Origin: Chthonomonas calidirosea
GTDB lineage: Bacteria > Armatimonadota > Chthonomonadetes > Chthonomonadales > CAJBBX01
Direction: 5' to 3'
DNA: 64,000 nucleotides
Assembly (NCBI GenBank): GCA_020722705.1
Contig: DYKI01000011.1
Span: forward strand, 1 to 64,000
Shown piece by piece: positions 35,683-40,185 of the stretch. Under the pieces are notes generated by a model. It was not told the origin of the DNA. It worked only from the letters and a program-made list of their open reading frames with translations, and made no database searches. Made by a program: the position numbers and the translations under genes. Position 1 is the first letter of the stretch; each line of letters starts with the position of its first letter.

Positions 35683-35712
35683 TTGACGCTGATTGCCTTG
35701 TCGTGTTAAAAT
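35683..35712 (+). promoter_or_regulatory. Predicted sigma70-type promoter of the candidate RiPP precursor
   Basis: TTGACG-N18-TAAAAT, followed by a ~135-nt leader containing hairpin CAGAGC-AGTC-GCTCTG. Confidence 0.6.
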
Positions 35713-35854
35713 GCACGTGTATCGCGCTCGGATGCGAACTATTCCGGGCGAGTTATCGTCCTAGAGTGAAGAGGGTCAGAACGCATAAGCCGCAGAGCAG
35801 TCGCTCTGAGATGCCAGGCTGATGCAGCGCCTACAGAAAGGACAAACAGGATTC

Positions 35855-36016
35855 ATGGGAGATTTCGATACCACCAAGCGCGGACGCGCTGCGTACGCGA
35901 AGCCGTCTGCGATGTTCGTCGAGCTGAAGCCTGAAGAGCGACTGATGTCATGCAACAAGACGCCGTCGGATATCGCATGCGACGATCCTACCGGCTTGGG
36001 CTTCGACGCCAGCTAG
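35855..36016 (+). CDS. Candidate RiPP precursor peptide (53 aa)
   Basis: MGDFDTTKRGRAAYAKPSAMFVELKPEERLMSCNKTPSDIACDDPTGLGFDAS; own promoter and terminator; next to PqqD and radical SAM/SPASM genes; alternative start at 35822. Confidence 0.6.
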   Translation: MGDFDTTKRGRAAYAKPSAMFVELKPEERLMSCNKTPSDIACDDPTGLGFDAS

Positions 36017-36061: not shown

Positions 36062-36105
36062 CAGAGGCGGCCGACGTGCGTGTCTGCCGCCTCTGTTTTG
36101 TTTTG
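36062..36105 (+). terminator. Strong intrinsic terminator after the precursor ORF
   Basis: CAGAGGCGGC-N14-GCCGCCTCTG perfect 10-bp stem followed by TTTTGTTTTG. Confidence 0.88.
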
Positions 36106-36251: not shown

Positions 36252-36533
36252 ATGAAGGCTAAGAGCGGATTCGTCCTGCGCGAAGTCGGCGAGGGTACCG
36301 TCCTGGTCCCGACCGGCGAGCGCGTGGTTGACATGAACGGCATGATCGTGCTTAACGACACCGGCAAGTTTATCTGGGAACGACTTGACGGCTCTCATAC
36401 CCCCGAGCAGATCGCGGCTGCTCTCGTGGATCTCTACGAGGTGTCGCTTGATGAAGCGGCGTCCGACGTGAACAGCTTCCTGAACGAGCTCGAGAACCTG
36501 GGGATACTTGAGAATGGCGCTGCTGCCAACTGA
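36252..36533 (+). CDS. PqqD-family peptide chaperone (RRE)
   Basis: VLVPTGERVVDMNGMIVLNDTGKFIWERLDGSHTPEQIAAALVDLYEVSLDEAASDVNSFLNELENLGIL. Confidence 0.9.
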   Translation: MKAKSGFVLREVGEGTVLVPTGERVVDMNGMIVLNDTGKFIWERLDGSHTPEQIAAALVDLYEVSLDEAASDVNSFLNELENLGILENGAAAN

Positions 36534-37587
36534 CTACAAGGAGCTGACGCGCGCCATCATGGCGCAGGCGGCGGATGCAGGCCGTCCCGTCAACGGCTCA
36601 TTCGAGCTGACAAGCCGGTGCAACCTCGGCTGCAAGATGTGCTATATCCGCACACGCGCCGGCGATCGGGCCATCAAGGCAACGGAACTCAGCGCCGAGC
36701 AATGGCTGGATCTGGCCAAACAGGGTGTCGAGGCCGGGATGCTGTTCCTGCTCCTGACCGGCGGCGAAGTGTTCCTGCGGCCCGACTTCTTCGACATCTA
36801 CGAGCCCCTGACCGATATGGGCTTGCTGATTACCCTCTTCACGAATGCCACGCTGATCAACAAACGAGCGGCAGAACGACTCGCCAAGCGGCCTCCCAAC
36901 CGCACGGAGGTCACGCTTTACGGAGCCAGCAAGGAGACCTACGAAGCGGTTACGGGTGAACCGGGCAGCTACGATCGGTGCATTCGCGGCATTGATCTTC
37001 TCGTTGAGGCAGGCGTGACGCTCAAACTCAAGACAACCATCAGTCGGATCAACGTTCACGAGTTCGACGAGATGCAGGCGATGGCAGACAAGTGGGGGGT
37101 CGGCTTTGGGGCCAGTTGGCTTCTCTCGAAGCGACGGGACCTTTGCTCCAGCATGGTTGAGGATATCCGCTTGAACGCGAAAGAAGCGGTCGAGCTTGAG
37201 ACGAGAGACGAGCAGGCGGTTGCCAACATGCGGATGATCGCCCAGCGCGAGCCGGAGCCGGTTTCTGAAGATCCGTTCTACTGTCAGGCCGGAAAGTCGT
37301 CCTTCGTGGTCGGTCCGTCGGGCGACATGAATGTCTGCATTGACCTGCCGCTCCCGCGAGCGCGGCCGACGGAGGTCGGCTTCGTCAATGCCTGGGAGCA
37401 AGTGAAGCGCTTCATCAGGACGGTGCCGCAGTCGGAGGACTGCAAGTCCTGCGAGCTCAACAAGTACTGCGTCCGATGTCCGGCGTGGGGTTACGTTGAG
37501 ACCGGTTCGATGACGAGCTCGGTCGTGTATCTCTGCGAGATCGCCAAGGAGCGCCGCGACCGTTACGCAGTGGAGGCTGCCGCTTGA
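36514..37587 (+). CDS. Radical SAM/SPASM peptide maturase
   Basis: ELTSRCNLGCKMCYIR (CxxxCxxC) and C-terminal Cys cluster YCQAG..MNVCIDL..DCKSCELNKYCVRCPAWGY..YLCEIAKERR. Confidence 0.92.
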   Translation: MALLPTDYKELTRAIMAQAADAGRPVNGSFELTSRCNLGCKMCYIRTRAGDRAIKATELSAEQWLDLAKQGVEAGMLFLLLTGGEVFLRPDFFDIYEPLTDMGLLITLFTNATLINKRAAERLAKRPPNRTEVTLYGASKETYEAVTGEPGSYDRCIRGIDLLVEAGVTLKLKTTISRINVHEFDEMQAMADKWGVGFGASWLLSKRRDLCSSMVEDIRLNAKEAVELETRDEQAVANMRMIAQREPEPVSEDPFYCQAGKSSFVVGPSGDMNVCIDLPLPRARPTEVGFVNAWEQVKRFIRTVPQSEDCKSCELNKYCVRCPAWGYVETGSMTSSVVYLCEIAKERRDRYAVEAAA

Positions 37588-38465
37588 ACCGTCTCGCATT
37601 CGGCATAGCCGGCCTGACCATCAATGTCGAATCGGAACAGCCGTTTCCGAGCGGTTTTGTGGGCGAAAAGCTCGCTCCGTTCGTGTTGCAGGAGCCGATC
37701 GCCGTTTCTGATGTCAGTGTCCGCTGGACTGATCGAGACCCACGCGGGATGCCGTTGGGAGAAGAAGTGTTTGCTCCCGGTTCCGTGTGGCGCATGCATC
37801 GTCGCGCAGATCGCAGCGATGGTTGGACGGCCGTCATCTCCTATGCGGATGACGGCCGTTTGACCGACAAAGCCGGCGTCGTCGAGGTGGACGGCGGCTG
37901 GCGCAGCGTGGCTCTGACCGAGCGAAGCCGAGGCGCATCCTGGTCCAGTCTGCTGAACCTCGGGGCAGGCGAGCTGATCGTCCGAACGCGTATCATTCTG
38001 GAAGGCGGCCTGGTGTTCCATGCGTCTGCCATAGACGATTCGGGTTCCGGAGTGATGATGGTCGGGCATGCCGGCGCCGGCAAGAGCACCCAGGCCTCCA
38101 TCTGGAGCCGTCAGGACGGCGTTATTGCCCTGAGCGATGACCGCGTTGGGGTCCGACTGGTGCATGGTATGCCGGTCGCTTACGGCACGCCATGGGGCGG
38201 CACGGCGGGCATCGCCAAGAACCACTCGGTGCCGCTGAAGGCTATTCTGGTGCTGGAGCAAGCGCCGGCCAACGCCATCGAGCCGCTGCCCATCGAAGAT
38301 GCCGCCCCACTTCTGCTTGCCCGCTGTTTCCTGCCATACTGGAGCAGTTCCATGATGGGTGCAGCGATGGATGCGATGACCGATCTTCTCCGAAAGGTCC
38401 CGGTGTACCAGTTCCGCTGTCTGCCGAATGACACGGTGGTGCCGGTCGTCCGCGCCGTGTTGTGA
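37584..38465 (+). CDS. HprK-like kinase/ATPase
   Basis: LVFHASAIDDSGSGVMMVGHAGAGKSTQASIWSRQDGVIALSDDRVGV; TTG start in a TTGA overlap. Confidence 0.78.
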   Translation: MNRLAFGIAGLTINVESEQPFPSGFVGEKLAPFVLQEPIAVSDVSVRWTDRDPRGMPLGEEVFAPGSVWRMHRRADRSDGWTAVISYADDGRLTDKAGVVEVDGGWRSVALTERSRGASWSSLLNLGAGELIVRTRIILEGGLVFHASAIDDSGSGVMMVGHAGAGKSTQASIWSRQDGVIALSDDRVGVRLVHGMPVAYGTPWGGTAGIAKNHSVPLKAILVLEQAPANAIEPLPIEDAAPLLLARCFLPYWSSSMMGAAMDAMTDLLRKVPVYQFRCLPNDTVVPVVRAVL

Positions 38466-38944
38466 ACGTCTCGTGCCGTGATCTCGTGCCGATCATCCAG
38501 GCCGTGCTAAGCGCTGGTTCGCGTGTGCGCTTCACGGCTACGGGCGGGAGCATGATCCCGTTCATCCGGAGTGGCGAGACGGTCGAACTGCAGGCCATCG
38601 AGCACGACGACATCAGGTCGGGCGATATTCTTCTGGCAATGCGTTCTGATGGCGTTTATGTCCTGCATCGCGTCGCTGAACTCGGCGATCGAAAGGTCTT
38701 CCTGGTAAGCGACGCAGGCCGAGCCGACGGCTGGATAGGCGCCGAGAACGTGGTGGCTCGCGCCACTGCGGTCTACAGGCGCGGACGCCGCCATGCGCTC
38801 GATACTGCCAGAGCTCGTCGCATGGGGCTGCTATGGATGCGCCTTGGGTCCCTTGCCACCGGCTCGCTTGCGCTGTGGCTGGCCCTGAGACGCCGACTCC
38901 GGCATGGGGGGCGCGCACAGGGGTGCGACCGGAACCCTGCGTGA
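38462..38944 (+). CDS. S24/S26-family (signal peptidase-like) peptidase
   Basis: RFTATGGSMIPFIRSGETVEL Ser box and DGVYVLHRVAEL box (His where bacterial SPase I has Lys); C-terminal TM; GTGA overlap. Confidence 0.8.
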   Translation: MNVSCRDLVPIIQAVLSAGSRVRFTATGGSMIPFIRSGETVELQAIEHDDIRSGDILLAMRSDGVYVLHRVAELGDRKVFLVSDAGRADGWIGAENVVARATAVYRRGRRHALDTARARRMGLLWMRLGSLATGSLALWLALRRRLRHGGRAQGCDRNPA

Positions 38945-40185
38945 CCTGTTGCGATCAGCCCTCCACTGCCCTCGCAGCAAACAGCGGAGAGGATGAGGAC
39001 AAGCACTCCCGTCTGCTTCTGTCGCTCTCCCTATGGCCGGCCTTCCATCACGTCGTAGATCGAACCTGCGGCAAGCTCACCGAGGACGATTGGCGACGCG
39101 CGCTCGGCCTTGCCAGAATCCACGGACTCACACCGATCCTGTATGCCGCAGCGGTCGAGGGGTGGACCGACCAGCCGGTGCCAGGTCTCGACGGTCCCAA
39201 ACGTTCGTACTTCATCCATGGCGCAAGGTCAGTGTTTGCGCTGGAAGAGCTCCGCGAGATATCCGAAGCCCTGGCCGGCGCCGGGCTGCGTCTGGTGGCC
39301 CTCAAGGGGATCGCTTCGATCCTGAGCGTCTATCCTGACCAGGCGCTTCGCACCCTGAGCGATCTGGATGTCCTGATTGATCTCCCGCAGCTTGGGCGCG
39401 CGGTTCAGGTCTTGAAGGAGCTGGGCTATACGAAGATTGAGAAGGCCACTTCACCCGAAGACGAGTGGCTGACAGTGATGTATCTGGATGGAATCTGCAT
39501 GGTACGCCCGCGCCGACTGCCTGTCGAGCTCCACTGCAGCTTCCTTGGGGGGCTCGGCGACACCGAAACGGCCATTGAGGACGCATGGCGGAGCCCTGTC
39601 ACCCTTGATGCCGGGCCGTGGTCCGTACTCGGTCTTCCGTTCGAACACGCGTTCATCATGGCTGCGTGCCACCTGCGCCGCAACTTCGATCGCGCGTTGC
39701 CCTACCTCAAGGACGTGACGGACCTGGCCCTTCTGTCCAGACGGATCGAAGTGCTCGGCGCATGGGACCGAATGTGGGAGGCTGCGCGACGCTGGGCGGT
39801 TATCGAGCACGTGCGTGGCGTTGCGGCATTCCTGAACGCTTATACGCCCGCGCATGTGCCGGATTGCGAGGATGCGGTGCCGGCATTCACCCCGGCGGAT
39901 CTGGTCTATGCGCTCGAACGGCTCGAAGGGCGAGGGCGGCTAAGCGAGGGGCTAGCGGCGCGCATGCGTCTGGTCGGAAGGCTTCCCGGACTGGCGGCGC
40001 AAGCCCGGTTCATGGCGGGTCTCGCTGTGCCCAGGCCCGGGTTCCTGCGCTGGAGATACCGGCTTGCCGACAACCGATCAGTCGCGCCATACTACGCGCT
40101 GCACATCTTTCGGGCGGTGTTCCGCATGGTTGAGGACGTCGTCCTGCGAACGAAGCAGAGCCGACGCCGCCACACTCGCGGCTGA
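38941..40185 (+). CDS. NTP_transf_5-like nucleotidyltransferase family protein
   Basis: LVALKGIASILSVYPDQALRTLSDLDVLIDL motif; GTG start in a GTGA overlap. Confidence 0.75.
   Translation: MTCCDQPSTALAANSGEDEDKHSRLLLSLSLWPAFHHVVDRTCGKLTEDDWRRALGLARIHGLTPILYAAAVEGWTDQPVPGLDGPKRSYFIHGARSVFALEELREISEALAGAGLRLVALKGIASILSVYPDQALRTLSDLDVLIDLPQLGRAVQVLKELGYTKIEKATSPEDEWLTVMYLDGICMVRPRRLPVELHCSFLGGLGDTETAIEDAWRSPVTLDAGPWSVLGLPFEHAFIMAACHLRRNFDRALPYLKDVTDLALLSRRIEVLGAWDRMWEAARRWAVIEHVRGVAAFLNAYTPAHVPDCEDAVPAFTPADLVYALERLEGRGRLSEGLAARMRLVGRLPGLAAQARFMAGLAVPRPGFLRWRYRLADNRSVAPYYALHIFRAVFRMVEDVVLRTKQSRRRHTRG

Follow-up and report, generated by a model that had tools for sequence, protein, structure and literature searches.

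A 53-amino-acid open reading frame (ORF) in the window, the whole 64,000-nucleotide stretch of DNA analyzed here, probably encodes the precursor of a radical SAM (rSAM) peptide that would also carry a phosphate at its C terminus. The precursor gene heads a compact operon, in which the genes for a PqqD-type protein, a rSAM/SPASM enzyme, an HPr kinase (HPrK)-like protein, a signal-peptidase-like protein, and an NTP_transf_5 protein follow in this order on one strand. No transporter gene was found between 35855 and 40185. The region contains the following features:

35683..35712, + strand: promoter-like sequence TTGACG-18-TAAAAT upstream of the precursor gene, a consensus match only
35855..36016, + strand: 53-aa precursor peptide (P1), with a predicted leader of residues 1 to about 29/32 and a core from there to Ser53
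35894..35905, + strand: codons of Y14-A-K-P17, the putative RRE-binding YxxP motif of the leader; Y and P are invariant in six orthologues
35951..35980, + strand: C-X8-C stretch (Cys33 to Cys42), where the rSAM enzyme is presumed to act, assigned at the sequence level
36011..36013, + strand: codon of the C-terminal Ser53, putative kinase target; Ser is also the last residue in 55 of 58 relatives
36062..36104, + strand: hairpin with a U-tract between the precursor gene and pqqD, a candidate terminator or attenuator (z -3.1)
36252..36533, + strand: PqqD-type discrete RRE (PF05402, 1.6e-19), with matches to TfuB1, LppB (9x8z), PbaB1, and TbiB1
36514..37587, + strand: rSAM/SPASM maturase (PF04055, 7e-21) with SPASM cysteines; best PDB profile match SkfB
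37584..38465, + strand: HPrK-like kinase with P-loop GHAGAGKST, DDR, and YGTPWGG
38462..38944, + strand: ER/archaeal-type signal-peptidase-like protein, putative leader peptidase (TIGR02228, 1.9e-7, below the cut-off)
~38833..40185, + strand: NTP_transf_5 nucleotidyltransferase (PF14907, 7.3e-36), start codon uncertain

A preliminary description had proposed a precursor peptide at this position, in which a leader half closing with EERLM precedes a two-Cys core at the C terminus, and had placed pqqD and rSAM genes nearby. This layout holds, and translation of 35855-36016 (+) gives exactly the 53 residues proposed, with Cys33 and Cys42; the YxxP motif at residues 14-17, the HPrK-like, signal-peptidase-like, and nucleotidyltransferase neighbors, and the near-invariant C-terminal Ser had all been overlooked. 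The description would have given up the peptide if related genomes had no conserved small ORF at this position, or if conservation were confined to synonymous sites; neither is the case. The window comes from an Armatimonadota MAG, to which Chthonomonadales MAGs are the closest named relatives. Orthologues of the ORF, all at the equivalent place upstream of pqqD, were found in five related Armatimonadota genomes. Identity to the window precursor is 66% in G001 (same genus), 62% in G005, and 48-50% in G008, G010, and G011, whose cores differ from that of the window. Alignment of the six orthologues left 16 invariant columns (M1, Y14, P17, A19, E23, L24, P26, E27, E28, R29, L30, M31, C33, K35, P45, and S53), and the ERLMxC motif suggested earlier as a check was present in 6/6. 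For the window/G001 pair, NG86 gave a dN of 0.22 against a dS of 1.25 over the precursor, and a dN of 0.02 against a dS of 1.4 over the Y14-M31 motif. The precursor protein is thus under purifying selection, which is strongest in the leader motif, and the core is freer; a constrained leader with a freer core is the usual pattern of RiPP precursors. The short ORF, the conserved leader, the variable core, and the adjoining modifying enzymes and RRE are likewise general traits of such precursors. These comparisons confirmed the 53-aa ORF as a real, conserved RiPP-type precursor rather than a chance ORF. No Pfam model matched the window precursor, and no NCBIfam model matched it or six relatives.

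An alternative in-frame start upstream, at 35822, was considered and dropped. The common AAAGGA sits in differing frames among the relatives, and therefore looks like a ribosome-binding site rather than protein. The promoter-like site has a counterpart in G001 (L004) with the same arrangement, TTGACG-18-TACAAT. The strong hairpin at 36062-36104 was absent from the list of the consensus scan that gave this site; with its U-tract, it would allow peptide output in excess of the enzymes. The three housekeeping genes downstream of the cluster are the same in the genome of the window (G000), G001, and G005, indicating that the cluster was inherited in place.

A profile of the leader only revealed 58 distinct relatives (57 after shared tails were removed), whose hosts belong to at least three phyla and include Armatimonadota, Nitrospirota, the phylum of a Syntrophaceae MAG, and a Rokubacteria MAG. 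In the phylum search, precursor-like matches with E above 0.01 are mostly due to chance. The leader pattern of the family is YxxPx(A/V/L/I)...EE(R/A)(L/V)xxC, and its form shifts among the relatives from EERL-xxC to EEAV-xxC to EQAI-xxC. Close relatives all have two Cys with varying spacing; over the whole family, the cores have little in common beyond their 2 to 5 Cys and the terminal position. The genome of the window possesses a second precursor (G000:C116) with the same leader and a different core, as do G001 and G005, and G217 and G221 possess three precursors each.

Several members have features of their own. In G001 (G001:C152:21529-22653, L095) and G005 (G005:C28:20398-21468, L094), the second precursor is immediately preceded by a gene for a secreted thioester-domain protein. 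The G001 copy matches PF08341, and an NTP_transf_5 gene follows the second precursor in that genome. This secreted protein may be a partner or a surface target of the peptide. In the genome of the window, the thioester-domain gene (G000:C116:16041-16406 (-), L093) has decayed to a truncated relic that carries three in-frame stops; the neighboring second precursor is still open. In the Nitrospira group (L028, L030, L034, and L035), related clusters have three rSAM genes each. Between an rSAM gene and the HPrK gene lie one or two precursors, which contain 3-5 Cys and all end in Ser. The core of L147 (G304), CKNSSSFLWRWWRWGCIGRGCGRSWGS, is Trp-rich (WRWWRW) between the conserved Cys, unlike other relatives.

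In the core, only the first Cys is more conserved than the terminal residue. Among the 58 relatives retrieved with the leader-only model, 55 end in Ser, two in Thr, and one in Pro (Ser/Thr 57/58). When the cores were thinned to 36 clusters with <50% identity to one another, 33 ended in Ser, two in Thr, and one in Pro (Ser/Thr 35/36), and the positions neighboring the terminal residue were variable. The Ser background in long ORFs of the same loci is 7.1%. Against a background of 10%, the enrichment of terminal Ser/Thr gave a binomial p of ~1e-34, which is an upper bound on its strength because the lineages are not independent. All six Ser codons are used at this position and all three stop codons occur, indicating that it is the amino acid that is constrained; neither nucleotide-level constraint nor overlap with a downstream gene explains the pattern. 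The loci were gathered partly with full-length profiles, which could favor Ser-ending matches; those reached through the rSAM alone are mostly Ser-ending as well. Two exceptions, both reached through the rSAM alone, are G260, a clear family member that ends in Pro, and G291, a borderline one that ends in Val; each of these genomes contains a distant HPrK.

A C-terminal Ser is the substrate of an HPrK homologue in paeninodin-type lasso clusters, wherein this Ser of the precursor is phosphorylated; paeninodin-type precursors from two phyla have little in common except the C-terminal Ser (PMC8498205). In these clusters, a nucleotidyltransferase puts hexoses on the phosphate. An HPrK is also found in the linear polyphosphorylated peptide (LPP; LppA/B/K/S/N) systems, in which it occurs with an RRE, a SpI-like leader peptidase, an NTP transferase, a transporter, and a YxxP leader, and which are stated to be restricted to Bacillota (Popov et al. 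2026; PMC13381572). LppK phosphorylates the internal core Ser3 and rejects Thr (PMC13381572), so that the LPP site is not the one proposed here and the two Thr-ending relatives are not obviously substrates.

HPrK models match the window kinase weakly. Its P-loop, DDR, and YGxPW motif are kept in every Armatimonadota member aligned, and the fold of its AlphaFold model (pLDDT 88.9) matches PEPCK and HPrK/P with E values of 4e-7 and 6e-6, the whole-chain TM-scores being low. HPrK is present in 23/24 genomes with the rSAM against 13/268 without it, and in 14/14 genera with the rSAM against 8/143 others. Outside Armatimonadota, 14 of the 16 genomes checked that have terminal-Ser/Thr precursors also have HPrK. 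The kinase had seemed to be missing from genus g8 (L124-L126), which was wrong: it is gone from the cluster but retained elsewhere in the genome, as an unlinked gene on its own contig. In L125, this gene adjoins an apparent WecG/TagA-type glycosyltransferase gene, suggesting a polysaccharide locus.

The hallmark of sactipeptides and ranthipeptides is a thioether from Cys to a carbon of another residue. The window peptide is unlikely to be an ordinary member of these groups with the kinase and nucleotidyltransferase as unrelated neighbors. Such a peptide would account for the core Cys, the rSAM/SPASM gene, and the best PDB profile match to SkfB, a sactisynthase, but it would leave the terminal Ser unexplained, and the kinase tracks the rSAM across genomes even where the two are unlinked. 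Moreover, the window enzyme falls far short of the cut-off of every named rSAM maturase model. A conserved Asp acceptor, following the CX3D logic of ranthipeptides, was dropped since relatives do not retain the Asp residues. A thioether crosslink at the Cys core is in itself plausible, with no acceptor residue conserved among the relatives; the preliminary description, which had named it as one of several possible modifications, was rightly cautious here.

The AhbD, NirJ, and MftC models outscore the sacti maturase models on the window rSAM, and anaerobic sulfatase-maturing enzymes oxidize Ser/Cys. These scores and the conservation of the terminal position would fit a different reading, in which the rSAM itself targets the conserved terminal Ser/Thr (e.g., by oxidation or a reaction at the C terminus like that of MftC), with the kinase acting at a later stage or elsewhere. 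We regard this as distinctly improbable: the conserved Cys would stay unexplained, and the same operon holds a kinase family with published C-terminal Ser specificity. It is very improbable that the product is a true LPP, linear and phosphorylated, and that the rSAM has some other substrate; the same four enzymes and the same leader motif are there, but pqqD and the rSAM gene are directly coupled in almost all loci and overlap in the window, and the invariant Cys is a trait of this family and not of LPPs.

For a rSAM peptide with a C-terminal phosphate, the preferred reading, four steps may be envisaged in a presumed order. The RRE would bind the leader via Y14-x-x-P17. The YxxP motif is bound by LppB and lasso B1 (PMC13381572), and N35 and D72 of the window RRE align with N33 and D70 of LppB, its leader-binding Asn/Asp, at one constant offset (the 9x8z chain numbering was taken as 18 ahead of the paper's numbering). 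The rSAM/SPASM enzyme would then act on the core with its Cys residues, a Cys-based crosslink being the likeliest modification. Subsequently, the HPrK-like kinase would phosphorylate the Ser53 hydroxyl, and the NTP_transf_5 protein would add something to that phosphate. Finally, the leader would be removed by the signal-peptidase-like serine protease, in which S30 (GGSM), H69 (LHRV), and D84 are kept across the family alignment. The cut may occur after E27-E28-R29; the LPP register (P-13 to cut) would place it after R29 in the window and after Ala in the EEA/EQA groups. In the LPP system, LppS removes the leader, and LppN has no detectable effect (PMC13381572).

On balance, we favor the view that the family is a multi-phylum RiPP class, in which a rSAM would modify a Cys core, an HPrK-like kinase would (poly)phosphorylate the C-terminal Ser, and several dispersed precursors would share a maturase in some genomes. 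The direct prediction is that the last residue is phosphorylated. If true, tailoring by kinase, nucleotidyltransferase, and SpI would extend beyond Bacillota and beyond lasso and linear peptides, and phosphate tagging in the style of lasso peptides and LPPs would be joined to rSAM chemistry; it would also help explain the role of NTP_transf_5 enzymes. The sequence rule YxxP ... EExxxxC ... C ... Ser-stop retrieves unannotated precursors in poorly studied phyla.

Compared with known systems, the window cluster resembles LPPs in its PqqD-type discrete RRE, HPrK-like kinase, NTP transferase, and variable core. The leader Y14-A-K-P17-S-A19 fits the LPP motif YxxPx[V/L/A], N35 and D72 of the RRE correspond to N33 and D70 of LppB, and S30, H69, and D84 correspond to the Ser-His-Asp of the SpI-like peptidase. 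However, the LPP consensus YxxPxVLxHQxIxFETxxS with core Ser3 is absent from this family, whose leaders end in EER/EEA/EQA instead of FET and whose conserved Ser is the last residue. The MsbA-like exporter of LPPs has no counterpart in the window cluster, whereas LPPs have no further primary modification enzyme comparable to the rSAM; hosts of the family lie outside Bacillota, unlike those of LPPs. The main text of the LPP paper makes no mention of radical SAM (PMC13381572).

The paeninodin-type lasso systems (PadeK, PsmN) share with the window an HPrK homologue with a C-terminal Ser substrate, a nucleotidyltransferase partner, a lasso-like RRE, and a [Y/W]xxP leader; as far as sequences can tell, the C-terminal Ser occurs together with an HPrK homologue here as well. 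Lasso clusters encode a B2 transglutaminase-like peptidase and an Asn-synthetase-like cyclase. Neither the B2 peptidase nor the macrolactam synthetase is in the window cluster, which has a rSAM in their place, and Transglut_core3 (PF13471) had no match anywhere in the genome. The SynChlorMet cassette (ScmC/D/E/F, TIGR04248-04251) also brings together HPrK-like, PqqD-like, and rSAM/SPASM proteins, but the window proteins scored 30 of 125 for ScmC, 34 of 100 for ScmD, and 87 of 400 for ScmE, far under the curated cut-offs. Sactipeptides and ranthipeptides share the rSAM/SPASM enzyme and Cys-bearing core, but the window enzyme falls below their maturase models, the family lacks a conserved acceptor, and the window cluster has a kinase, nucleotidyltransferase, and SpI. 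The literature searched contained no publication on SynChlorMet and no description of a rSAM, HPr kinase, and PqqD together in a RiPP setting.

In sum, the sequences place the window system outside LPPs (consensus, Ser position, and exporter), lasso peptides (B2/cyclase), and SynChlorMet (scores). It probably works like LPP and lasso systems at the recognition and kinase steps, and it is best read as a joining of two known kinds, the phosphorylation set of LPP and paeninodin-type clusters and a radical SAM maturase.
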